Below are positions 5,156-34,021 of a DNA stretch of 44,825 bases, piece after piece (within the stretch, counting starts at the first letter, position 1; every line of letters starts with the position of its first letter). Where the stretch lies: positions 1-44,825 of the IMG/VR virus record IMGVR_UViG_3300044957_001200; one strand, written 5' to 3'. Under the pieces are notes generated by a model. The model was not told the origin of the DNA. It saw only the letters and a list, made by a program, of their open reading frames with translations, and ran no database searches. Source of the stretch: a virus. The position numbers and the translations under genes are program-made.

Positions 5156-5159
5156 ATAT

Positions 5160-5165: not shown

Positions 5166-5171
5166 AATAAT

Positions 5172-5957
5172 ATGAAGACCCTTTATTTTGTGGCCGGTCT
5201 GCCTCGTTCAGGGAGTACCATGATAATTAATCTGCTAAAACAAAACCCCCAGGTAGAAGGATATGCGGTGAGCTCCTTGAGTTCGTTGATTGCCAATATT
5301 ATTGCCAATTGGAATAATATGGAAGCCAATCGTGAATTTCCCGATGAAAATGCAAAAATAAATGTATTGAAAGCTGTTTTAAATAATTATCATAATGCTT
5401 CTAGTAAAGAAATAGTTTTTGATAAAGACAGAATGTGGGTTACCCAGATTGGATTGCTTAAAAAACTATTACCTTATGATATTAAAATGTTGTGTCCGGT
5501 AAGAAGCCCAGCGGAAATTATTACTTCTTTTGAAAAGATTAAAAGGAATAACCCCCTTTCAGTGGTTGCCGGAGACACCGGAGGATTGACCATTGCTGCC
5601 CGGGCATTATACTACTCTGGACCAGCTGGTATTTTAGGTCTGGCCCATGCAGGCATTAAGGATGCATGCATTCAAGGTCACAAAGACAATATGTTATTTG
5701 TTGATTACAATAGATTTTGTAATAGTCCCAAGAGTCAAATGAAAAGAATATATGATTTTTTTCAACTGCCTAAATTTGAACATAATTTTAAAAAGATAGA
5801 ACAAACCGAGACTTATAATGATCTGGCCACCAGTTTACCCGATCTACATAAAATAAAACCGTCGGTGGATAGAACTGTGACTAACTGTGTGGAGTATATC
5901 GGATTGGATTTATACGAGCAGTATAACCGGGAAATCTTCTGGGATGCATGGATATAG
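5172..5957 (+). CDS. PAPS-dependent sulfotransferase
   Basis: 261 residues. The N-terminus has the 5'-phosphosulfate-binding loop GLPRSGST (residues 9-16) directly after the first beta-strand. The 3'-phosphate-binding strand and helix appear as VRSPAEIITSF (110-120), with Arg111 and Ser119 in the usual R-x7-S spacing. Length and motifs fit the Sulfotransfer_3-type family, which transfers sulfate from PAPS to a hydroxyl or amine of a glycan, peptide or small molecule. It lies between two glycosyltransferases and its last 10 bases overlap the next gene, so glycan sulfation is the likeliest job. It is a cytosolic enzyme with no signal peptide or membrane anchor. The acceptor is unknown. Confidence 0.85.
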   Translation: MKTLYFVAGLPRSGSTMIINLLKQNPQVEGYAVSSLSSLIANIIANWNNMEANREFPDENAKINVLKAVLNNYHNASSKEIVFDKDRMWVTQIGLLKKLLPYDIKMLCPVRSPAEIITSFEKIKRNNPLSVVAGDTGGLTIAARALYYSGPAGILGLAHAGIKDACIQGHKDNMLFVDYNRFCNSPKSQMKRIYDFFQLPKFEHNFKKIEQTETYNDLATSLPDLHKIKPSVDRTVTNCVEYIGLDLYEQYNREIFWDAWI

Positions 5958-6652
5958 TGAATAGTTTAGATTTTAAATTTAATCAAGATATAGATTCAGC
6001 CCATATTATTACCATAAAAGGTAATAAGGTATCTGAAAAATACGCACAAAGGTGTGCGGAATCTTGTAACCAAAACAACATACCCTATTATTTTCATGAT
6101 GCTTTTAGCACGAAAAACGACCATATTGTCGTGCCTAATAATCTAAAAAAACAAACCTGGATACAGTGGATTAAAAAAATGAATCAATGGCTTACTCCCT
6201 CGGAGGTGGCATGCTTTTTAAGTCATGTATCGGTTTGGGCGAAATGTGTTGAATTGGATAAACCTATTATTGTGCTGGAACATGATGCAATCGTTATTAA
6301 ACCCTACAAGACCCATAAAGCATATAACTGTATTGCTTATTTGGGATGTAAATATCAATTGGAAAGAAATGATACCCGTATGATTTACGGACAACTTAAT
6401 CCTAATTACCGGTTTATGTATTGTGCCCATGCTTATGCCATTGACCCGTATGTGGCAAAAAATATGTTATCCCAGGTTATTAAATACGGAATTACCACTT
6501 CTTTGGATGCTTTTATCCGGGGAGATATTTTTTCTATTCTACAAGATGACATATATGCATATGATGAGGGTCCGGTTTCTACCATTCAACACCCTACCTT
6601 TAACAACCATGAAGAAAACGAAAGAAAATATCTCAACTGTTTTAGTTCCTGA
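5948..6652 (+). CDS. Glycosyltransferase family 25-like protein
   Basis: 234 residues. Near the N-terminus is a strand for nucleotide-sugar binding (AHIITIKGN, 18-26). The core signature LTPSEVACFLSH (82-93), then W and C, then DKPIIVLEHDA (104-114), matches GT25 / LPS-biosynthesis transferases, where an acidic pair after the strand binds the metal-donor complex. Here the usual E-D reads E-H-D, so the metal-binding geometry should be checked. Later AHAYAIDP (residue 159 onward) fits the family's C-terminal half. The ATG at 5948 overlaps the sulfotransferase stop. It probably adds a hexose to the same glycan that its neighbours modify; the acceptor is not known. Confidence 0.75.
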   Translation: MDIVNSLDFKFNQDIDSAHIITIKGNKVSEKYAQRCAESCNQNNIPYYFHDAFSTKNDHIVVPNNLKKQTWIQWIKKMNQWLTPSEVACFLSHVSVWAKCVELDKPIIVLEHDAIVIKPYKTHKAYNCIAYLGCKYQLERNDTRMIYGQLNPNYRFMYCAHAYAIDPYVAKNMLSQVIKYGITTSLDAFIRGDIFSILQDDIYAYDEGPVSTIQHPTFNNHEENERKYLNCFSS

Positions 6653-7232
6653 ACACAACCAACTAAACATGGGGTGTGGATACCGTAAGCTGTTAGACTA
6701 CTGGAATGTGGACATCTGGAAAGACTGTAACCCCGATCAGGTATTGAATTTTGAACAAACTCCTTGGCCCTTTAAGGATAGTTTTTTCATTAAAATTAAT
6801 GCTGACAGTATACTCGAACATCTGGGGCAAACTCCTCAAAAATTTTTGGAGATTATAAAAGAAATGTACCGTGTTAGTGTACCGGGGTGTGTATGGACTA
6901 TATTGACTCCTCATCACCGGTGTGATAATTTTTTTAATGATTTTACCCATGTACGAATTATAACGGAAAATACTTTTAGAATGTTTGATCAAGTTTTAAA
7001 CGAAAATACTAGAAAAAAGAAATTAAGTCATAGTCTTCATGGTATTCAAAACGGGATAGATTTAGAGGTCTTGAGCGCCGATTATGATATAACAAGTATT
7101 TTTCAAAATATGGTAAAAGACGGTATGTTAGGTGCACGGCAGTTAAACATTGATTTAAATACAAAGAGTAATGTGGCAGAAAGTTTACGCCTACAAATTA
7201 AGGTACATAAACCTGGCAGGGCTGAAAAATAA
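6609..7232 (+). CDS. SAM-dependent methyltransferase (class I, MT11/12-like)
   Basis: 207 residues when started at the ATG at 6609, which overlaps the GT25 gene by 44 bases. An upstream ATG at 6423 in this frame lies deep in the GT25 gene and gives a non-homologous leader. Motif I is LNMGCGYRKLLDYWNVDI (residues 19-36), followed by the acidic residue of strand 2. The motif WPFKDSFFIKINADSILEHL then resembles the 'P(F/W)xDxxFDxVxxxxxLEH' element of small-molecule and sugar methyltransferases, followed by R-V-x-x-P-G-G-like RVSVPGC. It probably caps or modifies a sugar made by the preceding enzymes. It is the last gene of the G+C-richer module; the AT-rich neck genes follow after 65 bases. Confidence 0.75.
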   Translation: MKKTKENISTVLVPEHNQLNMGCGYRKLLDYWNVDIWKDCNPDQVLNFEQTPWPFKDSFFIKINADSILEHLGQTPQKFLEIIKEMYRVSVPGCVWTILTPHHRCDNFFNDFTHVRIITENTFRMFDQVLNENTRKKKLSHSLHGIQNGIDLEVLSADYDITSIFQNMVKDGMLGARQLNIDLNTKSNVAESLRLQIKVHKPGRAEK

Positions 7233-7810: not shown

Positions 7811-8253
7811 TGCCAAGTCTTCTTTCAGATATAGAGATAACAAATGCCACAGGAGTAATGGGTGATCTTTTTGACACTTTCTCTAGACCAATAGTAGTAT
7901 ACAAAGAACCTAAAAAGATAATTAATCAAGTCTCTACAAATAGCCTTCCTGGATATGGTGAAGCTGCAATTAAAACAAATATTACTTATATTCCAGTTAG
8001 CGGAACTTTTGATGCTAAAGTAAAATATAATCCAAAACAAGAACTTGAATTATTGCCAGAATTAAAAAGCAGAGTTAGTAAAGGGATTGTTAAGATTAGA
8101 GTCCAAAGAGAAGCCAGAGATTTTATAATGCAAAATGGCAAAACAGAGAGAATAGTTATTGATAATAAACCATTTAATGTTGTTACAGATGATACAATGA
8201 AGCGTTTTCTTACTTCTGAATATTTTGTATTTTTTTTAGAGGCTGCATCATAA
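7810..8253 (+). CDS. Putative head closure/stopper-type neck protein
   Basis: 147 residues, mostly predicted beta-strand. Near residue 20 is FDTFSRPIVVYKEPKK, reminiscent of the short strand-rich openings of head-closure proteins that sit between adaptor and tail completion genes. The rest alternates hydrophobic and charged residues with no membrane segment or cysteine. Start and stop overlap both neighbours by one or a few bases, indicating one translationally coupled operon with 7298 and 8253. Function is inferred from size, fold pattern and gene order only. Confidence 0.4.
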   Translation: MPSLLSDIEITNATGVMGDLFDTFSRPIVVYKEPKKIINQVSTNSLPGYGEAAIKTNITYIPVSGTFDAKVKYNPKQELELLPELKSRVSKGIVKIRVQREARDFIMQNGKTERIVIDNKPFNVVTDDTMKRFLTSEYFVFFLEAAS

Positions 8254-8870
8254 TGAGATTAAAATTAAATAAAAACCAATTGTCTAAATCAATCTCAAAT
8301 AATCCAAGAGTAGTTAAGATTATTCGTGAACAAGTAAAAGATCTTGTTGAAGAATATGTAGAGAAAAATAAGCAGCAAATGATAAATGAATTTGAAAATC
8401 ATCCTGTTACCAAAGAAATTGAGGCGGGGCCAGAAGCTTCCAATATTTCTAATACTCTTGGCGGTGAAGGCAATCTTTTTAGTTATATTGGTTTTAATGA
8501 TGGGAGTAATCCAACTGAAATCATAAAAGATATTCTTGCTAATGATGTTAGAGTAGACAATAAGCCAACTATTACTGCTACTGGCAAAGATTTAAAAATA
8601 AGTTTTCCAATATCTGGGCCAACATTAAATGAGATAGAATCTGTTACGCCTATGCCATTTGAAGGAGGTCGTAGTTGGGTTAGAGGTATAGAAAAAGGTA
8701 TATCTGGTTTTAGCTATTATATATTTAAAAAATATCTTAAAGGAAGTCGTTCTGGAACAGGGCTTCAAACAGAATCTGAAATTAGACCTGGCTCATTTAA
8801 GCCAACATCATATATGTCAACTATTTTAAAGAAATTTTATTCAAAGGTTAACGCTAAGTTTAATGTATGA
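8253..8870 (+). CDS. Putative tail completion / HK97 gp10-like protein
   Basis: 205 residues. The first 50 residues are a charged helix (KIIREQVKDLVEEYVEKN). The next segment holds NTLGGEGNLFSYIGF, then a beta-rich part and a basic C-terminal helix (SYMSTILKKFYSKVNAKF). Size, the helix-loop-beta order and the place two genes before the tail tube fit tail completion proteins of the HK97 gp10 class. The similarity is weak by eye, so an unclassified neck protein remains possible. It overlaps the next gene by four bases. Confidence 0.4.
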   Translation: MRLKLNKNQLSKSISNNPRVVKIIREQVKDLVEEYVEKNKQQMINEFENHPVTKEIEAGPEASNISNTLGGEGNLFSYIGFNDGSNPTEIIKDILANDVRVDNKPTITATGKDLKISFPISGPTLNEIESVTPMPFEGGRSWVRGIEKGISGFSYYIFKKYLKGSRSGTGLQTESEIRPGSFKPTSYMSTILKKFYSKVNAKFNV

Positions 8871-13344: not shown

Positions 13345-16300
13345 ATGGCTCAAAATATTGGCGAGGCGCAGATTAATTTATCAGTTAATACTTCCCAAAT
13401 GGAAAGGGAAGTTTCAGCTGCGTTAAAAAGACTAGAAAGTAGAGGTTTTAATTTAGGTCAAGGAATTAATTCTAGAGCTTTTACTCAACCTCTGGGTCGT
13501 ATTACTGGGGCAGCAAATGAGTTCCAAAAGTCATTGGACGCTTCAAATGCTCGTGTTATTGCATTCGGTGCATCTGCAGGAGCTATTTACAATGTTCAAA
13601 GAGCCTTCACAGCTTTAATATCTAGCACTATAGAAGTTCAAAAATCTTTAACAGATATTAATGTCATATTAAATGCTGGCACAAAAACATTAAGCCAATT
13701 TGGAGATCAATTATTTGAAATAGCTAAAAACAGTGGTCAAACATTTGCTACAGTAGCCACAGCAGCTGGAGAACTTGCTCGTCAGGGTTTAACTTTAGAA
13801 CAAACATTAAAGAGAACAAGCGATGCATTAATTTTAGCTCGTCTTTCTGGTTTAGATGCAGCTTCAAGCGTAGAAGCTTTAACAGCTTCAATAAATTCTT
13901 TTAATAATTCAGCTTTAGATTCTACTCAAATTGTAAATAAATTAGCTAGCGTTGATGCTGCATTTGCAGTAAGTTCTGCAGATCTTGCTGAAGCCTTAAA
14001 ACGAGTTGGTAGTTCAGCGCAAGATGTAGGAGTTAGTTTCGATGAATTATTAGCTATTGTTGCTAGCGTTAATCAAACTACCGCGCGAGGTGGAGCAGTT
14101 ATCGGTAACTCATTAAAAACTATTTTTACTAGAGTTCAAAGAACTGATGTATTAGATCAACTAGAAGGTTTAGGTATTGCTGTTAGAGATCTGCAAGGAA
14201 ATACAGCTCCAGCGATTCAAATTTTAACCGGTCTTGCTACTAAATTCGATCAATTAGGAGCAGCTCAAAAAGCTCAAATTGCAGAGTTGGTCGGCGGCGT
14301 ATTTCAAATTAACGTATTAAAAGCTGCATTAGGAGATTTAAGTAAAGAATATTCAATTTATGGAAATGCTTTAAAAACAGCTACAAATGCGGGTGATGAG
14401 GCTATTAGAAGAAATGAAGAATTAAATAAAACTTTAGCGGCTCTATTAAATAAAACTTTTGCAAATCTTACTAAGGTTGGAAGTGAAATCGGCGCTTTAT
14501 CATTTCAACCAGCCATAGAAAAAGTTTTAGGAGGATTAAATACGGCTTTAGAATCATTTGATGTTAAGGGAGATAGCATAGGAAGTAAAATAGGAAAAGG
14601 AATTTTTGATGGTATTGGATCTTTTATCTCTGGTCCAGGATTAGCTTTATTAATTGGAGTATTTGGAAAGATTTTTCTTAATCTTGCTAAATTTACTACT
14701 GACGCAGTTAAAACCGTATTAGGCTTAAATAGAGAAGCTCAAGCTCAAGCCCAGATACAAGAAAGAATAAACGCTATTTTATCTCAAAATCCGGCTTTAG
14801 TTCAAAATATTTTAAATAAACAAGTATCTCTTTTGCAGGTAGAAAAAGATATTCTCACTGTAATACAAGCTCAAACTCAAGCTCGCCAACAATCTACCGC
14901 AATAGCTGCGACACTTTCTCGTGGTTTAATGTCTCGTGGAGTAACATCTGAAAAAGGCGTTATTAGAGCAAAAAGCCAAGGTTTTATTCCTAATTTTAGC
15001 GCAAATAAAGAAATAATGGGAGCAATAGCTGGCGGTTATATGCCAGGAAAAATTCGTTCTATGAATATCCCTAATTATGGAAGAGTTACTTATAATAGCG
15101 CTGAAGAAGTAAAAAAATTCGAAGGATTAAAACAGCCTGGAATTATGCCTCCAGAAAGTAGCGAAGCTGGCAAGAATTATAAACAAAAATTTAAAGATAA
15201 ATATGGAATTGATCCTTATGCTAGTAGCGGATTTATTCCTAATTTTGCAGGTAGACCAACTACTCAAGCTCAAACAGACATAATGATAAAAAAAGGATAT
15301 GTAAAAGCTAGTGGTAATGAATTAAAACAATATTTAGATACAAAAGAAGGCAAAATAGAAGGGGCAAAATTAGGAGTTGTACCACTATATGGATCATATT
15401 GGGTGCCAGAATCAAAATATAATAAATTAGTTTTTAATTCTAAAAAATATTTAGAAGATACCGCAGCAAAAAAAGGAAGACTATATGAAAAAGGTGGAGG
15501 TAAAATAAGAGATTATGTATTGGTATATCCTGGATTTAGTAATGCAGATATGTCTTTTCCAACTATAGGCAAATCTAAAGATGGTAAACAAGTTGGTTTT
15601 TATGCAGTTCCATTTCCAGGGGAATTAAAAAGTAAAAAAAATTCAATTATAGGTCCAGGTATTTATGGAAATGCAATTAATGCTTTAGTAGATTCGTCTT
15701 CTAACTTTTTAACTGGTTTAGCGGGAGTTAATCCAGAGATTATTAAAAAAGCGCAATTTAAAAGATATTTAAAAAGTAACATATCTCAAGATCAAATTGG
15801 TACAATAGTTGGTAACGCTTTTGAAGGAGGAATTTTAGCTGCGTTAAATATAGTTCCATCTGATCGTACTCGTGTTTTAGATTTAACTAGTAAAGAATTA
15901 CAGCAGCTAGGAAAAACTTTTAAAAATCCAGTATTAGATAATGAGAAATGGAAAGGAGGAGATTTTAAAAATTCTCTTTCCCTTGACAATAGAAATAGCA
16001 TGGCTGAAAAAATTATTACTAACAGCATGGAAAAAGCTCTTGGATTTATACCTAATTTTTCTCCATTAAAAAGAGCTTTTGAAACAGAAAAAAATCTTGG
16101 TGGTCAGCCTACTTTAGATTATAAAGAAGGACTTGGATTATATGTCAGAGATAGAGCAACTCAACCAAATTTCGCAGCAGTAATGAAAGACCATCCAGAG
16201 GGATTACAGAAAGCAATTAAAAACTCCAAAAATATGCAAGGTTTAGTATCAAATGGATTTGTGCCTAATTTTGCTCCAGCCGGTTTTGATCCAATGACTT

Positions 16301-19300
16301 TATTTTTTACAATGCAAAGTTTTATGGGAATGGGCCAGAATACTATGGATCAAGCTGTAATGCAAGAAGAAAGAAATAAATTGGCTAGAATTTTAAAAGA
16401 AAGAAGAGCTGCTCAACAATTATTAGCTCAAGCAGAAAAAGCAGAAGTTAAAGATCAAAAATTAATTACAACGCTTACTCAAGAGAAAGCAGAATTTGAA
16501 GCAGCAGAAAGTCGTCAAAGAGCTTCTATGGAAAATCAAATGGGCGTATTTGCGAGAAATCCTAGAGGTCGAATTGTTGGTGGAATAGGCGGAGCAGCAG
16601 GAAGATTTATGGGGAGATATGGAACAGGAATAGCGTTAGCTGCGCCATTACTTTCTGGCGTAGCTAGCGAATTTGTTGGAGATGATGTTACTCGTGGAGG
16701 TAGAGCAACTAAAGCTGGAGTAACAGGTCTAGGTACGGTAGCTTCTTATGCTGGAATAGGAGCAATGGTAGGAAGTGCTATACCAGGTTTAGGCACAGGA
16801 GCAGGAGCTATAATCGGTGGCGGGTTAGGAGCAATTTCTGCTGCAACTACCGCGATTAAAGAATTTAATGACATAATGCCAGAATTAAAAAATAGAGCAG
16901 AAAAAGCTCAAGAAAGTTTAAATAATGTAAATTCTGCAACTCAGTTGCTTTCTACATCTTTAGAAACTCTTTCAAGTATCCAAAATAATACAAGTTTGAG
17001 CACGGAACAAAGAGTAAGACTACAAGAAAAAGCAACGGAAGATCTTGCAAGTAGTATAGCAAAATTAAATGAAGCTCTTCCAGGAGCAGGGGCTGAAATC
17101 GAGAATCTTTATCGTAAAGTTGGAGATACCTCCGAATTAAAAACTAAAATTTCAGAACTTCAAGCAGAAGCTCAAAAATCTTCTCAAGCAGTAATATCTG
17201 GCACAAGAGTAGTTTCAAGCTCGAAAAAAATAGAAGATTTGCTTAGCCCAGGAATGTTTAGTCCTTCTCAGTTATTAAGATTATCTCCCAATATTGATTT
17301 GAGAGATTTACAAATTGCAAATGAAAAACAATTAAAACCAACGGAAAGAAGACAATTAAATGAAGACGTAAGGATTGGTGCAGAAAGTGTGGCTGGATTA
17401 TTTAATAATTTAAGTAATACGGAAAGAAATATTCAAAGTTCAAAAATTCAAGAATTAATAAATACTTTTAATTCTAAAGGTCTTTCAGGATTAAAAGATC
17501 TTATATCGGGACTTGTAAAAAATGGAGAAGACGCAGCTTATATTTCGGAAATACTTAATGAAATTAATCCTGATACTTTAGAGAGATATTTTAATAAATG
17601 GTTAGAGCTACAAAAATCTGCAGAAAGAACAGAAAAATTAATAGCAGAAACAAATGCAGCATTTGCTAGAGGAGAAATGCCTATAACAAGAATAGAAGAC
17701 TTACAAAGACAATTCGCTATGCCTGGAGGAATTACTCCTGCCGCTTTAGGAAGAATAGATTTTAATAAGATGGAACAAAATTTAAGTGGTCAAAAAAATC
17801 AGAATTTTGCTGAACAATTTGCTACCGGATATAGAGAGTTGAGTGATTCGTTGGGATACGGAGCAGATAGAATAAAATATCTCAGTGAATATACTCAGCA
17901 AGCAGCAGAGATACAAAAAGATTGGAATAATGGTGCAATATCAACAACTCAAGCTTTTGAAAGATTAAAAATAGCTATAGATAAAATTGAGTTTGAAAAA
18001 AATGCGCCATTTATGTTTTCTGGAGAAAGAGCTCAAGCAAGACAAGACATATTAGAAAAACAATTAAAACAAGGTAATTTTGCAGAAGGGTTAGATCCTC
18101 TTAATTCTTTCTTTGATCGCTTTGGAGATAATGCGGCTACGACTGCAGATAAAATTAATAAATCTTTTGGTAATCTAGCTGAAAATTTACAAACCGGATT
18201 TGAAGACGCTTTTGGAGCATTTGTCGATGGAACAAAAACCGCAGATCAAGCTTTTAAAGATATGTTACTTAGCATATCTCAACAAATTATTAAGGAACAA
18301 TTTAGTATTGGTATGCGTGGTCTTATAGGCGCATTTACAGGTGGAGGTGGATTTGGATCTGCAGGTGGAGGAAATAGTGGTGGATTTTTAGGAGGAATAT
18401 TTAACAGTATATTTGGCGGTGGCAAAGCTAAAGGAGGATTAATTAAAAAATATAGTGGTGGCGGTTATGTAGATGGCGGGAGTGGAGTAAAAGATGACGT
18501 TCCAGCTATGCTTACAGATGGCGAATATGTATTAAGAAAAAGCGCTGTTAATAAATATGGTATAAATGCTCTAAATATGCTTAATCAGGGCGGAATGATA
18601 AAAGGATATGGTGGTGGGGGTGGAATACAAGCAATGGGTATCCGAGGCGCAGATAGAAGCGCTTCAACATTTATTGAAGAATTATTTTTTCCCAGAAATG
18701 ATGTATCAAGTTATTTAAACGATAGATTTTTACAAGCTAATAACAGAATGGTGTTTAGAGGAGGCAAAGGTGGAAAAATGTTAAGTATGCCCATTCCTTT
18801 TACAAAATCTTTACAAGGAGGAATACCAGTTACCGGTAAAGCTTTACATGCTACTCCACATTTTCAACAGGCCGCAGGATATGCAAACAGTGCGCTTGCT
18901 ATGCGATTCCAGAACGTAGCAGGAAAACTATTTTATGTTAGTGGATCAGAAGATAATGTACCATTTGCATCAAAAGCAAAGACGGTTCAAGCTTTTTCAG
19001 GTTTAGAAAAGCGGCTTGTAATGCGTCCTGGTATGGGAGGATCTGTATATTCGCAAGCTATGGGCTTAAAAGTATCTGGAGTAAAATTAGGAGATTATTT
19101 CGATGCAAGAGTTTCAGATAAAGTCCTAAATAATTTACCCTTATATCAAAGACAGCTTACTTCACTTTCACAATATGATGGACTAGAATTAAATGCTATG
19201 GGAGGAAGAAAAGATCGAACATTTTTAGTAATGAGAGATAAAGCTGTAAACATGCCAGCATTTCTTAGAAGACAAATAGATAGAGAAATTAAAGACGCAA

Positions 19301-22300
19301 AAAGATCTAATCCAAATTACATGGATAAAGCTGCAAGAGGTCGTTATTTTGATTCTTTAAAAAGCGCTAAAAATGCAAGAGGCATGGGACCTACATCTGC
19401 ATTTCTTGATGATGTAAGAATGGCCTGGAGTTTACAAAAGCCTATAGAAGTTTCAAAACCTGGTACAACACCAACTATTTCTCCCACTATGAGCTCTGTA
19501 GCAAAACCTTCTTTATTTAGTAGAGGATTAAAGCCACTTGGCAACCAAAACATAGATTATTTCTCAGACCCTAACAAATTTTACAGGGTTGTGCGCGGGC
19601 AAGATGTTTACGATGATATCGTAGAGTCACAAAAAATTAGAACGGCAGGTAGTCCAACATATCGGGGAGCTGATTATGACCCAACGGCATCGGGAAAAAT
19701 TAGACTAGATGGTAGGCCAACTACGTTTCCGTCTTTCGCCAAGGGACAGGCAAGCATGAGCTATGCTTCAGGTGATCCGAATCACTACATTATTGAGACT
19801 GGGGATAAATCACTACAACCCTCTAAAATGGGAAGACACGGCAAAGCCGGTACTCATTTCCCGACAGATGAAGCTGGAAACCATTTAAAAGAAATGGATG
19901 CCAAAAAAACCAAAATATGGAAACATATTGGGGGAGGTCAATACAAACCAGTATCCCCAAGGCTTCAAAAAATTGGGAAATCGCTTTTGGGTTTAGGCAA
20001 CAATGTTGCCAAAGGACTAGCCACAAGATTTGGTAGTCCTTTATTAAAGACAGGAGTCAAAATGCTTGGAGTTGCAGGAGGAATATTTGGTAATCTTGAT
20101 TTATTTGATCAATCGATGGCCGAACTAGGATATTTTCCTGGCGGTGGAAATAATATCTTGTCTAAAGGTGGCAGAATTAGAGGTTATGCAACAGGTGGAA
20201 GTATTAACAGTCTGCTTGTAAATCAATATGATTTTTATGGAGCAGCTGGAGAAAAATTAAATGAATATTATATGCCCGAAGCATTCAAAACAACGGTTGG
20301 TTCTCCAAAAGAATTAGCTAATGTACCAGCATTAACAGGAAGATTTAATATATCAGATCTTCTAAGTTCAAGAGCTGTAACTGATGAGAATAATCCAATG
20401 AATGCTCTTAGAACTCAAAGATTTCTTGGTATGCAAAGTTATCAAGAACAAGTAGCAAATTTTAAGACTGGATATAATGAACAATATCGTCAAGTAGAAG
20501 AACAGAGAAAAGAAGCTCAACGCTTAGCAGACGAAGAGAACGCGAGAAGAATGGCAGCTTATAATCAACAAAGAATGGGAACTCTTATAGGAGGATTATT
20601 AAGCGTAGGATTTTCAGCGGTCTCACCATTTTTAGGAGGCATGGGAGGAGGTGGAGGTTTTGGAGGAATATTTGGAGGAATACAGAACATAGCTCAAAAT
20701 GTTGTTCAAGGAATCTTTAGTGGCGCTGGTCAAGGCGGTGGATCTCAAACAATGAGCGCTTTTCAAAAAGAGATGATAGCTAAGCAGAACGAACAAGCCA
20801 TAACTTCGTATCAAAATTATGGATTTAATGATTTTAGAAAACAAGCAAATCTTTTCCCTCAATTTGGTAATCAAGGAGGGTTTGGAGGCGGTATGGGAGG
20901 TGGATCAAATTTTTTACCAACTTCAAGCATAGGTGGATTTCAATTTGGAGTTGGGTTAGGTGCTCCAGCAGGTTTTCAAACTTATACTCAAAATGCACAA
21001 CAAGATTACCTCTTAAATTTTGCTTCACCAGTAACACCGATTGCTCCTGGTCGTAATAATTTAGTTTACGATTTCTTAAATCAAAATACAAATCCATTTG
21101 GCTATAGCAGAGGATATGCAAAAGGTGGATTAATTAGAGGTTATTTTGATGGAGGTGGAGCAAGCAAATATATTACTCCTGATCAACTCGATCTTCCTAT
21201 AAAAGGAAATTTTGGAGAAACAACTACATTAAGACAATTAGGTTTGACAACTAATAGTACTTATGCAGATTTAAATAAAATGAATCAACAAGCTTTTGGA
21301 GGAGGATTTAATAGTCCAGAAGTTATGCAATTTGTGTCCATGATAAGTAGTATGTCTGGATTACCAGGAGGTGGATTTAATAGAATCACTGGAGTAAATG
21401 ATCTATATCATATGACTAGAAGAGCTCCAGACACATCTCATAGAACAGGATATAAAGTAGATTTTACATTAAAAGGCCAAAATAAGTTTTACCAAGAGCA
21501 AAAGAGCATGATAGTAGATAATTTAGAAAAAGAATATGGACTGCAGGCTGGAGCAGATTATGCATTAAATTATGAAGGAATTGGAACTCCTGGTTCTACA
21601 GGAGAACATTTTGATGTTCAATTAAAAAAATCAGGAGTTAAAAAAATAAGAATGATGAATATGGGTATTCCCGCAGATAATACTCAGATCGCGGGCATGA
21701 TCCTAAGTAAAAAAGCTGTAGCAGAATATCTAAATTTACCTCTAAATGCACCTTTTCCTGGAGCAAATACAAATACTATAGCTGGAACGAACATATCCAC
21801 TGTTGGTCCTCAAGCTAATCCTTTCACTAACACTAATCCTATTACTCGCTATCTTACTCCAGACGGACCTACTCGTTCAAATATGCCATATGTTGGTAGT
21901 CAAGGATCTATGACGAATGCGCCTAGCTATATTACTCGTTCTGCTATCCCATATGGACCTACACGTTCAGACATGCCATATGTTGGTAGTAGAGGGTCTA
22001 GAATAGGTACACTAGCTTCGCAAATGCCTATGGGAGGAATGCCAACAACTCAAATCCCTGATGTATCTATAGGCCCTACTAAAAGCCCCATCATGTACAG
22101 CATGGGCGAGGATATTATAACTTCGCCTAGAGTAGCGCAACCTCCGATAACAACTAATGCAAGAGCAACTACGCAAAATTTTGCTAAAAAAGTTAGTGAA
22201 TATTTTCGTGATCCTTTAGGTATACTTCCATCTGGTGGAGGATTGGGGAAAGGAGCAATTCCTACTATCTCAAAAGGTCCAGGCAATATTCCTATAATTG

Positions 22301-23511
22301 GACCTCAAGTTAATGCGCCTACAACATCGCAAAGAGGTGGATTACCCTCTACCCAAGTTAATATACCAGGAGCAAACCAAACTCCGCTTGATCTTAATGA
22401 TCCTATAATTGCAGAATATGTAAAAAGTCAGTCTCAGCTTTTTGAAGAAGCTGCTCAGGCTTCAATGATGCAACTTCCATATTTCAGAGATTTAAGAAAT
22501 ATGGTAGATATGGCGACAGGAAATGCTCCAAATCTTTATCAAAGTGTTGGAAGTCTATATGATGTAAAAAATAAAGGAGATTATGGTAAATTAGCCGCAA
22601 GATTTTCTTCATTCTACGGGAATAATTTCAAGAATAGATATTCTTCATTTGGAGAAAAAGGATTTAATAATTATTTAAATTACATTGGCGCAAGTCCATT
22701 CTCATCTCTCTCTCAATTAAATGCTTTTAAATTTCCAATGACTCCAAATACATATAGTCCATTTGCATTTGGTAGTAGATATTTTGGTGGATTTGGCGGA
22801 ACAGGATATCAATCTGGATTTAATTCTTTTGGAACTCCTTTTAGTAACTGGTTTTCGACTGGCAGTAGATTAGGCATAACTCCAAGCTGGGCAAGTAGGG
22901 CTATTGGAGGTATGATATATGGAGGAACATCTTATAAAGATGATGTTCCAGCAATGTTAATGGGTGGCGAATATGTTATTCGCAAAGATATTGTAGATAA
23001 GATGGGCGAGCCCTTCTTTAATCGTCTAAATAGAGGACAAGTTCAAGGGTTTGCAGAAGGAGGACCAGTAGGTACTAATTTACCATCAGTTGGTATGGAT
23101 CAAAATACCCAGCAAGATAATTCAAGAAATCAATTTGTAGAATCAATTACTAAATTAGTTAAATCTCTAGAGCAATTGAATAAAGGCATTGAAGAGCAAA
23201 ATAGAGAAACTAAAACTCAAAACGAAGGAGCAACTGATACTACAGAATCTGGTGGAGGTGGAGTTACAAATAATATTAATATAAATGTTAACGTGGATCA
23301 AAATGGAAAAACAACAAATTCAACTACACAAGAAGATCAAGGCTCTGGAACAAATCAAGAAACAGATCAAGAAAAATTCAAGAAGACTATGGAAAGATCT
23401 AGAGTCCTTGCGGAATTACTAAGACAACAAGTATTGAAAGTTATCGTTGAAGAACAACGTCCAGGTGGAGTATTATATCAAGGTAGCAAAGGAAGAGACT
23501 TAGGACGTTAA
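13345..23511 (+). CDS. Tape measure protein with inserted enzyme-like domains
   Basis: 3388 residues, the largest gene. Residues 1-400 match the TP901-type TMP core (helical, Ala-rich, with RGGAVIGNSLKTIFTRVQ near 247-264). Four GFIPNF-type motifs follow at 546, 629, 900 and 971; the last reads GFVPNF. Residues about 1085-1172 are a Gly/Ala-rich hydrophobic stretch suited to membrane insertion, then long helices to about 1680. The C-terminal third is Gly-rich and holds repeated GG-x-I-x-GY motifs (near 1695, 1750, 2275, 2595) and two DDVPAML-x2-GEYV(L/I)RK motifs (1717 and 3199). Between these linkers sit two ADP-ribosyltransferase-like regions (about 1765-2230) and an M15-like peptidase (about 2680-2775). 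It sets tail length and is ejected into the host. At 0.15 nm per residue the upper tail length is about 500 nm, less the globular inserts. Confidence 0.92.
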   Translation: MAQNIGEAQINLSVNTSQMEREVSAALKRLESRGFNLGQGINSRAFTQPLGRITGAANEFQKSLDASNARVIAFGASAGAIYNVQRAFTALISSTIEVQKSLTDINVILNAGTKTLSQFGDQLFEIAKNSGQTFATVATAAGELARQGLTLEQTLKRTSDALILARLSGLDAASSVEALTASINSFNNSALDSTQIVNKLASVDAAFAVSSADLAEALKRVGSSAQDVGVSFDELLAIVASVNQTTARGGAVIGNSLKTIFTRVQRTDVLDQLEGLGIAVRDLQGNTAPAIQILTGLATKFDQLGAAQKAQIAELVGGVFQINVLKAALGDLSKEYSIYGNALKTATNAGDEAIRRNEELNKTLAALLNKTFANLTKVGSEIGALSFQPAIEKVLGGLNTALESFDVKGDSIGSKIGKGIFDGIGSFISGPGLALLIGVFGKIFLNLAKFTTDAVKTVLGLNREAQAQAQIQERINAILSQNPALVQNILNKQVSLLQVEKDILTVIQAQTQARQQSTAIAATLSRGLMSRGVTSEKGVIRAKSQGFIPNFSANKEIMGAIAGGYMPGKIRSMNIPNYGRVTYNSAEEVKKFEGLKQPGIMPPESSEAGKNYKQKFKDKYGIDPYASSGFIPNFAGRPTTQAQTDIMIKKGYVKASGNELKQYLDTKEGKIEGAKLGVVPLYGSYWVPESKYNKLVFNSKKYLEDTAAKKGRLYEKGGGKIRDYVLVYPGFSNADMSFPTIGKSKDGKQVGFYAVPFPGELKSKKNSIIGPGIYGNAINALVDSSSNFLTGLAGVNPEIIKKAQFKRYLKSNISQDQIGTIVGNAFEGGILAALNIVPSDRTRVLDLTSKELQQLGKTFKNPVLDNEKWKGGDFKNSLSLDNRNSMAEKIITNSMEKALGFIPNFSPLKRAFETEKNLGGQPTLDYKEGLGLYVRDRATQPNFAAVMKDHPEGLQKAIKNSKNMQGLVSNGFVPNFAPAGFDPMTLFFTMQSFMGMGQNTMDQAVMQEERNKLARILKERRAAQQLLAQAEKAEVKDQKLITTLTQEKAEFEAAESRQRASMENQMGVFARNPRGRIVGGIGGAAGRFMGRYGTGIALAAPLLSGVASEFVGDDVTRGGRATKAGVTGLGTVASYAGIGAMVGSAIPGLGTGAGAIIGGGLGAISAATTAIKEFNDIMPELKNRAEKAQESLNNVNSATQLLSTSLETLSSIQNNTSLSTEQRVRLQEKATEDLASSIAKLNEALPGAGAEIENLYRKVGDTSELKTKISELQAEAQKSSQAVISGTRVVSSSKKIEDLLSPGMFSPSQLLRLSPNIDLRDLQIANEKQLKPTERRQLNEDVRIGAESVAGLFNNLSNTERNIQSSKIQELINTFNSKGLSGLKDLISGLVKNGEDAAYISEILNEINPDTLERYFNKWLELQKSAERTEKLIAETNAAFARGEMPITRIEDLQRQFAMPGGITPAALGRIDFNKMEQNLSGQKNQNFAEQFATGYRELSDSLGYGADRIKYLSEYTQQAAEIQKDWNNGAISTTQAFERLKIAIDKIEFEKNAPFMFSGERAQARQDILEKQLKQGNFAEGLDPLNSFFDRFGDNAATTADKINKSFGNLAENLQTGFEDAFGAFVDGTKTADQAFKDMLLSISQQIIKEQFSIGMRGLIGAFTGGGGFGSAGGGNSGGFLGGIFNSIFGGGKAKGGLIKKYSGGGYVDGGSGVKDDVPAMLTDGEYVLRKSAVNKYGINALNMLNQGGMIKGYGGGGGIQAMGIRGADRSASTFIEELFFPRNDVSSYLNDRFLQANNRMVFRGGKGGKMLSMPIPFTKSLQGGIPVTGKALHATPHFQQAAGYANSALAMRFQNVAGKLFYVSGSEDNVPFASKAKTVQAFSGLEKRLVMRPGMGGSVYSQAMGLKVSGVKLGDYFDARVSDKVLNNLPLYQRQLTSLSQYDGLELNAMGGRKDRTFLVMRDKAVNMPAFLRRQIDREIKDAKRSNPNYMDKAARGRYFDSLKSAKNARGMGPTSAFLDDVRMAWSLQKPIEVSKPGTTPTISPTMSSVAKPSLFSRGLKPLGNQNIDYFSDPNKFYRVVRGQDVYDDIVESQKIRTAGSPTYRGADYDPTASGKIRLDGRPTTFPSFAKGQASMSYASGDPNHYIIETGDKSLQPSKMGRHGKAGTHFPTDEAGNHLKEMDAKKTKIWKHIGGGQYKPVSPRLQKIGKSLLGLGNNVAKGLATRFGSPLLKTGVKMLGVAGGIFGNLDLFDQSMAELGYFPGGGNNILSKGGRIRGYATGGSINSLLVNQYDFYGAAGEKLNEYYMPEAFKTTVGSPKELANVPALTGRFNISDLLSSRAVTDENNPMNALRTQRFLGMQSYQEQVANFKTGYNEQYRQVEEQRKEAQRLADEENARRMAAYNQQRMGTLIGGLLSVGFSAVSPFLGGMGGGGGFGGIFGGIQNIAQNVVQGIFSGAGQGGGSQTMSAFQKEMIAKQNEQAITSYQNYGFNDFRKQANLFPQFGNQGGFGGGMGGGSNFLPTSSIGGFQFGVGLGAPAGFQTYTQNAQQDYLLNFASPVTPIAPGRNNLVYDFLNQNTNPFGYSRGYAKGGLIRGYFDGGGASKYITPDQLDLPIKGNFGETTTLRQLGLTTNSTYADLNKMNQQAFGGGFNSPEVMQFVSMISSMSGLPGGGFNRITGVNDLYHMTRRAPDTSHRTGYKVDFTLKGQNKFYQEQKSMIVDNLEKEYGLQAGADYALNYEGIGTPGSTGEHFDVQLKKSGVKKIRMMNMGIPADNTQIAGMILSKKAVAEYLNLPLNAPFPGANTNTIAGTNISTVGPQANPFTNTNPITRYLTPDGPTRSNMPYVGSQGSMTNAPSYITRSAIPYGPTRSDMPYVGSRGSRIGTLASQMPMGGMPTTQIPDVSIGPTKSPIMYSMGEDIITSPRVAQPPITTNARATTQNFAKKVSEYFRDPLGILPSGGGLGKGAIPTISKGPGNIPIIGPQVNAPTTSQRGGLPSTQVNIPGANQTPLDLNDPIIAEYVKSQSQLFEEAAQASMMQLPYFRDLRNMVDMATGNAPNLYQSVGSLYDVKNKGDYGKLAARFSSFYGNNFKNRYSSFGEKGFNNYLNYIGASPFSSLSQLNAFKFPMTPNTYSPFAFGSRYFGGFGGTGYQSGFNSFGTPFSNWFSTGSRLGITPSWASRAIGGMIYGGTSYKDDVPAMLMGGEYVIRKDIVDKMGEPFFNRLNRGQVQGFAEGGPVGTNLPSVGMDQNTQQDNSRNQFVESITKLVKSLEQLNKGIEEQNRETKTQNEGATDTTESGGGGVTNNININVNVDQNGKTTNSTTQEDQGSGTNQETDQEKFKKTMERSRVLAELLRQQVLKVIVEEQRPGGVLYQGSKGRDLGR
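18640..20040 (+). other. ADP-ribosyltransferase-like double insert within the TMP
   Basis: Codons about 1766-2232 of the TMP interrupt the usual Gly-rich C-terminal text. The first part has MVFRGGK (Arg1805), then ALHATPHFQQAAGYAN and LFYVSG. The second part has FYRVVRGQ (Arg2081), then PSFAKGQASMSYASG (Ser2137/Ser2139) and HYIIETGD (Glu2151). That order, Arg on the first strand, then an STS-like strand, then a downstream Glu, is that of ART-fold toxins. The second part is visibly richer in G+C than the rest of the gene. The fold call is by eye and is not proof of activity. Confidence 0.5.
21370..21670 (+). other. M15-like peptidase domain within the TMP
   Basis: The segment SHRTGYKVDF gives His2699 and Asp2706 in the H-x6-D spacing of M15 peptidases (VanX, endolysins). 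TGEHFDVQ gives a second His at 2755. Together these would bind zinc. The catalytic Glu is not clear (Glu2754 is adjacent to the His instead of three residues before it). Likely role: local peptidoglycan cutting during DNA injection. Confidence 0.6.
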
Positions 23512-26500
23512 ATATTTTCGTCATTAATAAAAGCGAAAGTTTGAGATAAAACATCTCCGCTTTTATCTACAAGATGAATTTTAATAGCGAACATATTACC
23601 ATTCTTAATCCAAGAATTATAATCGTTAGCTATTTTTTCGAATAATTGTGTTCCTTTTTTAGAGAATGAAAAATCAGGTATAGATAAGTAGATTGGATAT
23701 GTTTTAACAATATCATCAAAAGTGTAAGAATCAATTAAATCTGAGCCTTTCCATGTAATATCATTTATATTATAAATATTTTTCATATAAATTAATATTT
23801 TATCTAATCCAACATTATGCTCGGGATAGCATACTATTCCAAAACTAAATCTATTAGTTGATATTGTTGGTTTCTTATATTTTATTTGATGAACTGATTC
23901 GCTATAATCTAAAACTTTATATCTCCATGCTGCAGATCCTAGAACGTAATTTGTAGTTCCATCTATTTTACCAAAAGGATAGTTATTTTCTGTTTGATTA
24001 GCTATAAATTTAGACAATATATAAAATTGTTTATATGGTGCTCTAAGAGTTATTGGATTAATATCTTGAACGCAGCAGCCTTTAGTGCAATCCATGTTAT
24101 TATTTAATATCGTATATGGACATTCTTTTAATATGCTAAATTGATTATTATCTAAATTCGTGGCTAAGAGATAAATATCTCCAAAGAAAGGAACATCATC
24201 TGGATCTTCAACAAGTTTAAATTTAGTAGGATAGACTAAAAATGATATCATTTTTTTTGAATCAACGATATTTTTTTGATCTATTATTACTCCATCTAAA
24301 ACTGGATCTGTATCTACACCGCAAGAAGATACAAATTTTGCTACAAAATAATGATAATTTACTCCATTTATTTCTTTTATACCTTTTTCTAATATTGTAT
24401 CTGTTCCAGATATCCCTTGTATAATAAAGTCTTCTGCATCTGGTATATCTAATATAAATTCTATTATTGCATAAGCATCATCTTTTTGGATTCCTGCACG
24501 AATAAATTTAACTGCTAATATATTTTTGGCTTTAAAATAATTTAAATCATAATTTACGCTTTTAAAATCAGCAGTATTTGGAGATTGTGCATCTCCAATA
24601 TTACCAGGATCATAAACCCCAAGATAACTTTCACTGCCATAAATACCAGAGCTTGGCACATCTTCTGGAGTTAAAAACGCATAGCTTGCATTACTTATAT
24701 ATTTATAAGAATCTAAACATCTATAAGTAGTTTTATATTTATCTCCAAGCAAAAAGTTATTATTTTCTTGAGCATTCGATAATGGAAAATAATCAAAAAA
24801 TTCTGGTCCAGAAGCTAATCCATCGTATTCAAAATCTAACATTCTTGCACCACCTTTTTTAAGATAGAGATCTCTATAATTTTGATTAGGCCAAGCTATA
24901 TAAGGAAGACTTTCTGGAGTAAAAAAGTAAACTAAACCTTGATAACTTGCCGCAATTATAGAAGTATAATTTTTTGTATCTTTTATAAATTTATTTAAAG
25001 TAATATATTTACTAATTAATTCTGTATTTTGAATATAATATTCTAAACCTTCATTTGTAAATCCTATTTCGCTAAGATAAGCATACAATGAATATGACTG
25101 TAAAGCGTTTAAGTAATATATTCTTGCAGAGAAAATGTTATCTCTTAATAAAGGACTATCTGGATTTAAATATGTTGTTATTCGGTATTTCGTTTCAGTT
25201 TGAGAATCGATTAATTCAACAGAGTAATTTTTCTCTGTATTGTTTTCTAACTTATCTAGATTTTTTAAGAATATAAAATCATCAGAATAAACTTTATTTT
25301 GTTTAATATTGATGTTTTGTTCGTATTTTTGAGGAATAATTACTATAGCTTCTAGGCCAATATCAACAGGTAATAAATCTCCTTTTATATCAAAAGTGAT
25401 TTTATTCTCATCCACTCTTTTATAATTTTTAAACATTTTACTAACATGATCTCTAGATATTGTATTATGTTGTATTTTAACTATTCTATACCCATCTTGA
25501 TTTGTATACCTTTCTGGATCATCCTTTTTATTTATATTTCCACCAGCAGAAGAAAAACCATCTTCGTCAATCGCCTCGCTAGTTATATAATATGAATTAT
25601 AATGCCCTGGCTCACTTATTCTGACATAATTAGTTGGTATTTCTCCAGTAGTTCCAGTTAAATTTAATATTTTATTAAAAAATGAACCTGTCGTATCCAT
25701 GTCTGGATTAAACAATATTGTATTTTCATCTGAAGTACCTTGGATATATTTTGTATTAGAAGTTAAAAATGCACTATAATTACTACTATAATCAAAAATA
25801 AAATATCTATTATTATCAGAAGATATCGATGAATATTCTGGAGAACGAACTATATTTACATCAGAAATAGAAATACTTTCATTTACAGAAAAATCTTTAT
25901 TTACAGAGTTGCCAACTGATTGAATTGCATAAATATCATTTGATGAATTTCTTAATATAGTTTGATCAAAAAGGATACCGCTATTATTATCTATGGCTGG
26001 GATTACTCTGTTATATATTCTTGTATATTTATTTTTGAAATACGGGGCAAAATCTTTATATAAAAAACCTTGATTATTGATATAATCTTGAGTTGTTGCA
26101 GAAGAGTAATTCAACTGATATCCTAATAAAGCATAAGGTTCATTTAAAGTGATTGTGCTAGCATTATCGCATAATCGCATATATCCACTAGTATAATAAT
26201 TTAAATTCTCTAGACTAACTTCTTTTATTAAATTTTGATAAGGAATTATTCCGGTAAATAGAATTCCAGAAGATTCTAATCCCATATTATTTTTAGAAAA
26301 AATAGTTAAATAGTGCATGCCTGTATTTTTAGGAATATAGTAGAAATACTGATCCGTTTCTAAAACAGGCAACTCTTTTATTAAAAAGTTGACTGGATTA
26401 CTATTTGGCTCGAGATTATAAGTATAATCACTAAGATATAGATTATATGTTTCTATATTTTCTATATTATTAATTGGGTTTATCCTGATCTTAAAGCCTT

Positions 26501-26564
26501 GAGTATTTTTTGTGATATTAATTATATCTATCTCTGTAGAAGGTAATGTTGTTGGATTACTCAT
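23508..26564 (-). CDS. Large tail tip/fibre protein downstream of J, unknown family
   Basis: 1018 residues, beta-rich, with many Asn, Tyr, Ser and Ile. The N-terminal 100 residues look like a fibronectin-III-type sandwich (TQGFKIRINPINNIENIETYN and FYYIPKNTGMHYLTIFSKNN). The middle and C-terminus have no recognised domain. A Cys-rich spot (CTKGCCVQ, about residue 830) could bind metal or form disulfides. It starts directly after the J stop with no gap and is last in the minus-strand tip operon, so it probably attaches to J as a receptor-binding or side-fibre protein. Its stop codon shares TTAA with the convergent TMP stop. No signal peptide or transmembrane segment is seen. Confidence 0.65.
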   Translation of the reverse strand: MSNPTTLPSTEIDIINITKNTQGFKIRINPINNIENIETYNLYLSDYTYNLEPNSNPVNFLIKELPVLETDQYFYYIPKNTGMHYLTIFSKNNMGLESSGILFTGIIPYQNLIKEVSLENLNYYTSGYMRLCDNASTITLNEPYALLGYQLNYSSATTQDYINNQGFLYKDFAPYFKNKYTRIYNRVIPAIDNNSGILFDQTILRNSSNDIYAIQSVGNSVNKDFSVNESISISDVNIVRSPEYSSISSDNNRYFIFDYSSNYSAFLTSNTKYIQGTSDENTILFNPDMDTTGSFFNKILNLTGTTGEIPTNYVRISEPGHYNSYYITSEAIDEDGFSSAGGNINKKDDPERYTNQDGYRIVKIQHNTISRDHVSKMFKNYKRVDENKITFDIKGDLLPVDIGLEAIVIIPQKYEQNINIKQNKVYSDDFIFLKNLDKLENNTEKNYSVELIDSQTETKYRITTYLNPDSPLLRDNIFSARIYYLNALQSYSLYAYLSEIGFTNEGLEYYIQNTELISKYITLNKFIKDTKNYTSIIAASYQGLVYFFTPESLPYIAWPNQNYRDLYLKKGGARMLDFEYDGLASGPEFFDYFPLSNAQENNNFLLGDKYKTTYRCLDSYKYISNASYAFLTPEDVPSSGIYGSESYLGVYDPGNIGDAQSPNTADFKSVNYDLNYFKAKNILAVKFIRAGIQKDDAYAIIEFILDIPDAEDFIIQGISGTDTILEKGIKEINGVNYHYFVAKFVSSCGVDTDPVLDGVIIDQKNIVDSKKMISFLVYPTKFKLVEDPDDVPFFGDIYLLATNLDNNQFSILKECPYTILNNNMDCTKGCCVQDINPITLRAPYKQFYILSKFIANQTENNYPFGKIDGTTNYVLGSAAWRYKVLDYSESVHQIKYKKPTISTNRFSFGIVCYPEHNVGLDKILIYMKNIYNINDITWKGSDLIDSYTFDDIVKTYPIYLSIPDFSFSKKGTQLFEKIANDYNSWIKNGNMFAIKIHLVDKSGDVLSQTFAFINDENI

Positions 26565-29500
26565 TTAAACATTGTCTCCTAAATTATATTTAGTTTCATC
26601 ATATTGCAAGGCAGTTATTTTATATCTATATTCTTCTTGCTCCTCAATATCTAAGATTCTAAATTTCTGTGTTTTATCCATATAAGGTTCTAATGACGCT
26701 CCTGGATATTTAACTCCTGGATCGCTAATTCCAGAAACACTTGGACTTTTATTATAATCGTAATTCTCTGGTTCTATTTCTATAGTCCAAACTGTATTTT
26801 GCATTAACGTATGCTCTGTATCGTCTAAAGATTGACCTCCAAAATCAATCTTGGTATATCCCTCAAAATTACCAGTAGTTTCTATCGTCACATAATTACC
26901 AAAAACATTTGTGTCAGTTGGATCAAGAATCGAGTAATTTGATTCAAATTTTATTGTTTGAATCTGCTTTTTTCTTATTAAAGACGTGTCTAACCCTGAA
27001 ACCAATGTCTTTTGTCCATCTGGCTTTGCTACGGTAAATGGGCTATTATTATCTGCAGAAAATTCTAAGACCGCATTTCCTGTTTCTGTTCCTATCTCAA
27101 TATTTCCTGCTGGAGTTAATACGTTAAAATTACATCCGTTTATAGCTTGTAAAAATCCAGATATATCTTCGTACTTAATATCTAAAATTGCATAATTTTT
27201 ATTTAATACGTATGTTCTTCCTCCTAAAATTTTATTTTGCCTATTCTGGTCTTGTATAAAAACTATATCTCCAGGCTTCAAATACATCGCGGGTAAACTC
27301 GTTTCAAAAGTAACTAATTCTGATTCTAGATTCTCTGATAACAAAGTCCATTTCCCTAATCTTTCAGCCTGACCTTCGCTTGTGCATCCAAAGGCACTAA
27401 CTTCAATTTCTTTTATCCCAAATCTAATTAGCCCTTCTCTACTCTCTACATATTTTACTGCAGGTTTATAAAAATTCTCTTTATCATTATATCTGACTAA
27501 CGCTACATTTCTTCTAACTCTTTTACTAGTATTACTATATGTAAATTCTCCATCCTTTACATTACTATTATTAAATATATACAATGGATCTTTTGGTCTA
27601 TCTTGAGAAGTAAATATTAATCCGGCATTATAGAAAACTATTGCTCTAAAAATACTTGCCATATCATTAACAACTTTATAAGCGTCTTCTCTGGTGCTAA
27701 TGAGTACATTACAAGTAAATCTTGGCTCTTTTCCATCTCCTGTTCCTCCCGAACTGACTAATTGATCACAATATTTTGAAATTTCATATAAAGTCCATTT
27801 ATCTGTTAGGTTTGGATCTACATATTTTCCTAATCCATATCTTCTATTAGTAATTAAATCATAAAAACACCAAGCAGGATTATCTGTCCATCCTAAATTA
27901 AAATTTCCATCCCAAATACCATCATAAGTTCTAGAATAAGGATTATAATTACTGGGGATTTTTACTTTTAACAATCTTGTGTCATAGGCTCTTTGTGGTA
28001 TACTAGTAAAATACCTAGAATCAAAAGTGGTTAAAATTCCAGCTGTATGGGGTAAAACAAGAAAATCATCGTAAATTTCAGTAATAGAATCTATTGCACT
28101 TCTTACTACTATATTTGGATCAACGCTTTCATCATAAACAGGCTCAATTTCTATCTCCCATCCAACAGTTGTTGATCTTGTGTATCTATTTAAACCTGTC
28201 CATTCAAATGTTTCGATATAAGGTCCTTGATTTAATTTACCTGCGATTGTTAACGTAGCGTAATCTCTAGCTTCTCCTACTAATAGTCTTTGTCTTTTAT
28301 CTTTATAATCTTGTAAAGAAGCTCGAAAATCACGTTGCAACTTATTAACATCGTTAGCGTATGTTGTATATATCTTACCATCATGTCTATGAGAATAAGT
28401 TGTTCTTCCATTTATGAATTCAGTAAAGTTTGCTGGTTTTCTTTTATATCCGTCTGGACCAGATCCACCTCCAGGACTATCAGGGGGCCAGAATAAACCC
28501 AAAACATCATATTCTTTACTAAAAACTGTATTATAATATTCTTCTTCGCTTATTGTAAATGCTCCTGATGAACTTCCTGTATAATTTGGATTAGGGATTA
28601 ATGTGACTTGTTTTCCTACATTTGGAATATAATCTATTCTTTTTAAATAAAGATAAAAAGTCATTTCCTGTCGATCCATTCTACCGCTGACTGAATTTTT
28701 TGAAGCATCATCGGCGCTTTCCCAAATGGTTAGATCAACAATACTTTTAAATAAACTTAAAGCTTTTAGATGGAGTCTTAAACCATATAAATCTTTAGTA
28801 AGAATTGTTAAAGATTTTTTATAAGTTCTAGAACTTCCATCTTGGAATTTTCTTCTACCAAAAAGTCTTGTTCCAACAATTTTCGTACTAGTTAACCTTC
28901 TGGGCATTTTTATTTTAGATAATAAAGTATTTGCATTTTCATCATATAAAGACACCGTATCAAGATATTGCCCATTGTTTACTTTTCTTGCGTAGAATGG
29001 TTCTTCTAATTTTATATTTTTTAATTCATTTAGTCTTGTATGTCTTGGGGCTGAATCACCATAATCATATGCGAGTCTAATAAATTCAAAATTTAAACTT
29101 CCCTTAGCTGGATAAGTATTATCTGCTATAGGTATCTCATTCCAATATACAGATCTTAATAAAGAATCTGGTCCTTGATATTTAATTATTTTAACTCCAT
29201 TTTTATAACCTATATCTCCTATTGTTGCTCCTGGATTAGGGACTATTTCATAATCTACAATACCTTCGATAGGACCTTCTCCAAGAACGTCTAACAAAGA
29301 TATATTTGTTAAAGAAGTTATGCCTATATCTTTTGTATCTTTTAACGTATTTCCATATCTAAAACCATACCGATCTATTTGTTGTCTATCTCCCACTCTA
29401 CTTACTAAAGTGTGACAATTCCTTGGAATCGAAGAGCTTGGTAATGTATAATTATCGTTCCATGTTCTTGTCCCTTTTCTGACGCCACCATATCTATTAT

Positions 29501-31958: not shown

Positions 31959-31961
31959 AAA

Positions 31962-34017: not shown

Positions 34018-34021
34018 ACAT

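Follow-up and report, generated by a model that had tools for sequence, protein, structure and literature searches.

Effectors that phages inject with their genome are mostly known from heads, as in the case of T4 Alt, MuF fusions and polyvalent proteins. The latter unite many disparate effector domains, such as nucleases, peptidases and ADP-ribosyltransferases (ARTs), in one long polypeptide that accompanies the DNA (PMC5512222; PMC9503650), and virion-borne ARTs have been reported (PMC9503650). Their phage representatives have been tied to heads, portal or MuF, with no mention of "tape" in these two papers. A tail-like counterpart is found in the Sle1/Tme effectors of contractile injection systems, which have an N-terminal part related to tape measure proteins (TMPs) and an exchangeable C-terminal domain and are packed in a tail-like tube; these are bacterial nanoparticles, however, for which one variable C-terminal domain has been described (PMC13277306). 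Furthermore, peptidoglycan-hydrolase motifs have been found inside TMPs themselves, where they aid DNA entry (TM4 Mt3, PMC1796659; enterococcal phages, PMC10194240). Here we have analysed a TMP encoded at 13345-23511 of a viral DNA stretch of 44,825 nucleotides (IMG/VR record IMGVR_UViG_3300044957_001200, positions 1 to 44,825, in the following "the window"), which would be the carrier of several cargo modules in three slots, A to C, joined by short repeated linkers. We put the probability at about two in three that this TMP, with its conserved core and body, also carries exchangeable effector cassettes that are released ahead of or with the DNA, and it is best filed as a tail-borne, cassette-joined variant of the polyvalent effector carriers. 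The carrier differs from the polyvalent proteins in being a TMP with GFxPNF joints, and from Sle1/Tme in its repeated joints with tandem internal cassettes, which have not been described there. Slot C resembles the TM4 and enterococcal cases, whereas these hold single cell-wall motifs and lack a shuffling of nuclease, GNAT and further cargo at repeated joints. A literature search leaving out most subscription journals and bioRxiv has found no description of the GFIPNF motif or of such a TMP family, which is weak evidence of novelty.

The open reading frame (ORF) on the plus strand starts with ATG and encodes 3388 amino acids (aa). It is a TMP, as PF10145 matches residues 127-314 (E 8e-30, Pfam) together with many PHROG tape-measure profiles, and homologues of the lambda-like tail-tip proteins M, L, K and I at 31962-36946 on the opposite strand place it among tail genes. 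A 100% identical protein has been found on a second metagenome contig and residues 1706-3388 are identical on a third, so that the arrangement is not an artefact of one assembly. The motif G[FY][IV]PNF occurs at residues 546, 629, 900 and 971, exactly where a preliminary description made from the sequence alone had placed it, with 0.0004 copies expected from composition. The further linkers of that description are present as well, DDVPAMLxxGEYV at residues 1717 and 3199 and GGxIxGY at 1749, 2275 and 2594. Since PHROG TMP profiles also match both GEYV sites, DDVPAMLxxGEYV is not particular to this protein. In our reading, a usual TMP stops at about residue 1750, and the remaining ~1640 residues are a C-terminal extension that itself finishes with a repeat of this ending. 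The distinct regions between the linkers are found as described, and those at 635-895 and 2605-2780 hold conserved catalytic-type residues. The lambda-like tail-tip genes at 23508-36946 (minus strand) are convergent with the TMP gene, the stop of which shares four bases with the end of the 23508-26564 gene.

Scanning viral contigs with module A, the cargo of slot A, has yielded 78 loci. Every one of them has a single TMP-sized ORF with the motifs, the first of which is mostly found around residue 545 or 627. In 56 of these loci the N-terminal 500 residues are 40-97% identical to those of the window's TMP, and PF10145 is matched in all 56 relatives. When viral contigs have been scanned with the core only, at least 515 related contigs have been obtained; complete TMPs have been taken from the 80 matches listed, and all 58 complete ones among these matches contain at least two GFxPNF motifs. 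The joints are consequently a constant feature of the TMP lineage and not an effect of the search. A paired joint, defined by one exact pattern, is present in 24 viral contigs and absent from 257 Gb of cellular genome contigs, and the scan of genome contigs for a host has found no relative. With cultured phages the window's TMP has only the generic TMP core in common, at 22-31% identity. Within the family the TMP length ranges from 1758 to more than 4400 aa. Four members (L029, L032, L036 and L038) have TMPs of 3500-4450 aa with 7-9 joints over the whole length and a second joint zone beyond residue 2200.

The preliminary description had proposed to compare related phages for domain swapping at the linkers, and such swaps have indeed been found, with the linkers as module boundaries. 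The 200 inter-motif segments of 63 non-redundant TMPs can be grouped into 67 families, of which 26 have several members, and the order of the segments is shuffled; families F3, F5, F7 and F9 are among those with 3-5 different neighbours. This clustering has employed coverage limits, without which 114 segments merged via the shared linker. Of the non-redundant endpoints of local alignments, 33% are no more than 10 residues away from a motif versus 16% (standard deviation 1.1) at random, as determined from 500 random placements of the interior motifs, none of which reached the observed value, the endpoints not being fully independent. For TMP pairs with 60-70% identical cores, slot-A cargo is shared by 28% in a single-sequence search and by 48% if all matches to the profile of F1, the family of module A, count as shared.

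The most direct evidence has been obtained from near-identical pairs. In L042 and L043 (98% core identity), the DNA aligns for 9.5 kb at 94.4% identity, as far as TMP residue 1348 directly behind a GFIPNF motif, and the alignment restarts at residue 1515, directly ahead of the next one, L042 having one extra cassette of 176 residues with the frame intact. The sequence AAAGGTTTTATACC.AATTTTGCTG is common to both joints of L042 and equals the single joint of L043. Likewise, L041 and L049 can be aligned over 7.3 kb with 94.6% DNA identity as far as residue 632, where GFIPNF ends, and carry different modules thereafter. The synonymous divergence (dS) between L042 and L043 is 0.32 in the core, 0.03 in a staphylococcal nuclease (SNase) module and 0.04 in the F13 module; dS in the modules is thus far below that of the core, which indicates that both modules have been exchanged after the two backbones split. 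A chimeric contig is possible for any single pair, but dozens of independent contigs with an open frame contain the same joint. Modularity of the TMP is strongly borne out by these observations, and both pairs look like genuine recent TMP domain swapping. At the level of DNA, this would explain GFxPNF as an in-frame recombination joint. Of the two roles that had been suggested for the linkers, boundaries or processing sites, the former has thereby been substantiated in the form of recombination joints and proteolytic processing has found no support. In a previous study of phage-protein mosaicism, TMPs have been over-represented in sequence-level mosaicism and genuine recent TMP mosaicism has not been confirmed (PMC10684548). 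The window's family differs from this by its clean recent swap cases, and the near-identical pairs bear on the question of recent TMP domain swapping left by that study.

Regarding the cargo itself, E827 and D846 of module A are invariant and K875 is conserved to at least 90% in 24 sequences with identities down to 22%, and residue 873 is D or E in most of them, a pattern of the PD-(D/E)xK type. An F1-like module is present in 45 of 85 TMPs. The AlphaFold model of module A has reached a pLDDT of 76 and a pTM of 0.65, and in neither PDB nor BFVD has Foldseek returned a match at E ≤ 0.001. Module A may thus be described as PD-(D/E)xK nuclease-like, which is less certain than the modularity.

Slot B is occupied by an insert of 519 aa between duplicated GGxIxGY linkers. 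Three relatives (L008, L014 and L018) have one GGxIxGY linker and no B insert, and L012 has a different insert in this slot. The two regions of the insert, B1 and B2, had been labelled ART-like in the preliminary description (1765-2230), a label that has not been confirmed: profile searches for an ART family in Pfam, PHROGs and PDB have given no match for 1765-2230, and the AlphaFold model of this region, built from three sequences, has a pLDDT of 35 and is unusable for fold search. Free genes for cargo modules are in circulation as well: in L092, a phage that differs in other respects, 7923-8693 encodes a stand-alone B2 homologue of 256 aa (48% identity) next to the gene for a probable amidase.

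For slot C, an M15-like peptidase had been proposed. The M15-type ligands SxHxxGxxxD and a C-terminal His (H2699, D2706, H2755) are conserved between the window's TMP and those of L005 and L018, and a 28% match has been found to the M15-like part of JOAD_230 of Erwinia phage Joad (2561 aa, annotated as putative endolysin; L198:1-2328); a significant M15 match in Pfam or PDB, on the other hand, has not been obtained, so that slot C is termed M15-like on its conserved residues. At the same position L012 carries a GH73 glucosaminidase (E 1.8e-18) and L014 a YkuD domain of the L,D-transpeptidase fold (E 1.3e-9), both above the Pfam cut-off. Because these two occupy the same slot, slot C likely holds a cell-wall enzyme in the window's group. 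The C-terminal survey for hydrolases in 38 relatives has returned one glucosaminidase only, which is an under-report, the YkuD of L014 not being listed there and having been found when the segment was scanned alone. With this single hydrolase among 38 C-terminal parts, the C-terminal envelope slot is not a general rule.

The idea of enzyme cargo has been confirmed for the relatives, in which some modules are real enzymes according to Pfam, namely SNase, GH73, YkuD and GNAT, and the inserts vary from relative to relative. Family F6 is an SNase domain (E 2e-9, above the Pfam cut-off), and one module matches a GNAT acetyltransferase (E 6.7e-8). F5 and F8 retain the E-D-(D/E)xK residues, and F7 shows by eye an R-S-E-like layout; the family profiles of F5 (nuclease-like) and F7 (ART-like) have found nothing significant in PDB, and most modules belong to no known family. 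In the TMP of L043, SNase, PD-(D/E)xK-like and other modules are combined in one polypeptide. The closest relative of the window's TMP (L005, 81% identity) is 80-100% identical in the core and most body segments, while the identity has been found to drop to ~49-76% at 650-900, 46-62% at 1750-2050 and 50-60% at 2600-2800, and the region around 2063-2262 is missing. Ratios of non-synonymous to synonymous divergence (dN/dS) have been determined between both proteins at similar dS across regions (0.60-0.86). The carrier shows ratios of 0.04 (core), 0.11 (body), 0.07 (2290-2590) and 0.05 (close to the C-terminus), versus 0.40 in module A, 0.62 in module B1 and 0.44 in the M15-like module. With dS being similar, the higher ratios mean that the cargo protein evolves about ten times faster than its carrier, still below neutrality.

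One may postulate the following course of events. The core and the helical body would set the tail length and open the channel, as is usual for a TMP, and the cassettes in slot A (GFxPNF), slot B (GGxIxGY) and the C-terminal slot C would travel stretched inside the tail tube, exit with the TMP ahead of, or together with, the DNA and refold after ejection. Cell-wall enzymes of slot C, M15-like in the window's phage, could then act in the envelope, and nuclease-like and possibly modifying-enzyme domains of slots A and B could have the inner membrane or the cytoplasm as their site of action, where they may take over the host or block its defence. The linkers would serve as in-frame joints made of short repeated DNA and a tolerant peptide turn, at which a cassette could be gained, lost or exchanged through homologous recombination with the TMP staying intact. 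Catalytic activity of the window's own modules, packaging, ejection, refolding and target compartment are inferred here. Two observations in other phages are relevant here, as the lambda TMP has been labelled by inner-membrane ManZ fusions during injection, so that TMPs exit the tail and reach the inner membrane (PMC13190303), and a cell-wall enzyme inside the TM4 TMP can help DNA entry, yet is dispensable (PMC1796659). A bolder version, which we hold tentatively and somewhat short of an even chance, is that a large uncultured lineage uses its TMP as a programmable effector train, with cytoplasm enzymes between GFxPNF motifs, envelope enzymes at the C-terminal end and the order of ejection as the order of compartments, the joints allowing phages to exchange effectors one by one without loss of frame, in the manner of a polymorphic effector system that is carried by the tail and directed at the host cell.

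Several points weigh against the delivery of effector cassettes. The window's own modules have given no significant family or fold match in profile and fold searches, and the ART identity of B1 and B2 is unproven. All members are metagenome contigs, none of them cultured, and delivery into the bacterium is argued by analogy with TMP biology. The C-terminal thirds of most other members contain no Pfam hydrolase, so that an ordering into envelope and cytoplasm has been seen only near the window. The inserts could instead be structural and serve as spacers for adjusting the length of the tail or the filling of its tube, without catalysing anything in the host, given that in other phages the tail length is set by that of the TMP (PMC1796659, citing lambda and TP901-1), that TMP length in this family varies as widely as described and that the mini-modules F0, F2 and F4 are small, repeated and free of an enzyme signature. 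We consider this unlikely in view of the Pfam-significant enzymes in the modules, the invariant E and D and conserved K in 24 divergent module A sequences and the unrelated domains that occupy one slot; moreover, fast cargo evolution with dN/dS below 1 is unlike that of a spacer.

GH73, YkuD and GNAT, none of them a nuclease, also fill slots, and different kinds of modules are stacked in tandem in one TMP, which makes it rather improbable that the cassettes are selfish passengers, i.e., nucleases spreading through TMP genes like homing endonucleases and tolerated as the joints keep the frame. What speaks for such passengers is the E-D-[DE]xK motif in 81 of 146 segments versus 18.5 after shuffling, the SNase module, a weak ParB-like module and the location of nuclease genes at genetic-exchange borders in other phages (PMC10448857). 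GFxPNF and GGxIxGY have also been considered as protease sites for the release of the cargo from the TMP, either in assembly or on entry, as separately acting proteins. Although some TMPs are processed (PMC1796659) and the motifs lie at module borders, no protease tied to the motif has been found and the DNA evidence accounts for the position of the motif as an in-frame joint, so that we give cleavage a small chance; it rivals only the joint reading of the motif and would be compatible with cargo delivery. If the TMP provides a second, tail-borne route for effectors, more than 500 uncultured viral contigs would hold a motif-delimited catalogue of early-infection effectors, and candidate domains for anti-defence and host takeover could be listed, cloned and tested directly with the help of the joint motif.

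The features of the TMP gene are collected in Table 1.

Table 1. Features of the TMP gene, with residues of the 3388-aa protein and nucleotide positions in the window
Feature	Residues	Nucleotides	Strand	Remark
TMP core	1-540	13345..14964	+	Pfam and PHROG TMP matches
GFIPNF joint 1	546-551	14980..14997	+	same position across family
83-aa mini-module, joints 1 to 2, family F2		14980..15228	+	21 members in non-redundant set
GFIPNF joint 2		15229..15246	+	motif match
Cargo module A, family F1, nuclease-like	629-899	15229..16041	+	E827, D846, D873-x-K875
GFIPNF joint 3		16042..16059	+	motif match
71-aa mini-module, family F0		16042..16254	+	40 members
GFVPNF joint 4	971-976	16255..16272	+	motif match
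DDVPAMLTDGEYV, first copy	1717-1729	18493..18531	+	C-terminal motif common to many TMPs
GGMIKGY linker	1749-1755	18589..18609	+	left border of B insert
Cargo slot B insert	1756-2274	18610..20166	+	empty site in L008, L014, L018
Module B1, ART-like by eye only	1765-2040	18637..19464	+	57% identical piece in L005
Module B2, ART-like by eye only	2067-2210	19543..19974	+	absent in L005
GGRIRGY linker	2275-2281	20167..20187	+	right border of B insert
GGLIRGY linker	2594-2600	21124..21144	+	left border of slot C
Cargo slot C, M15-peptidase-like	2605-2780	21157..21684	+	H2699, D2706, H2755
DDVPAMLMGGEYV, second copy	3199-3211	22939..22977	+	near C-terminus

Residues 1588-1695 of the TMP (18106-18429) have given a weak phmmer match to the DnaJ chaperone 6jzb (E 6e-4), which is probably driven by composition, the region being Gly-rich. 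Elsewhere in the window, 951-4103 (plus strand) encodes a 1050-aa RCC1-repeat protein (Pfam RCC1, E 1e-209), the GC content of which (0.43 versus 0.28-0.37 in the rest of the window) may point to a recent acquisition. The following 4139-7232 (plus strand) contains consecutive genes for a glycosyltransferase-9-like protein (weak match), a sulfotransferase and a glycosyltransferase-25 inside the structural region, the last of which overlaps a second long frame at 6423-7232.
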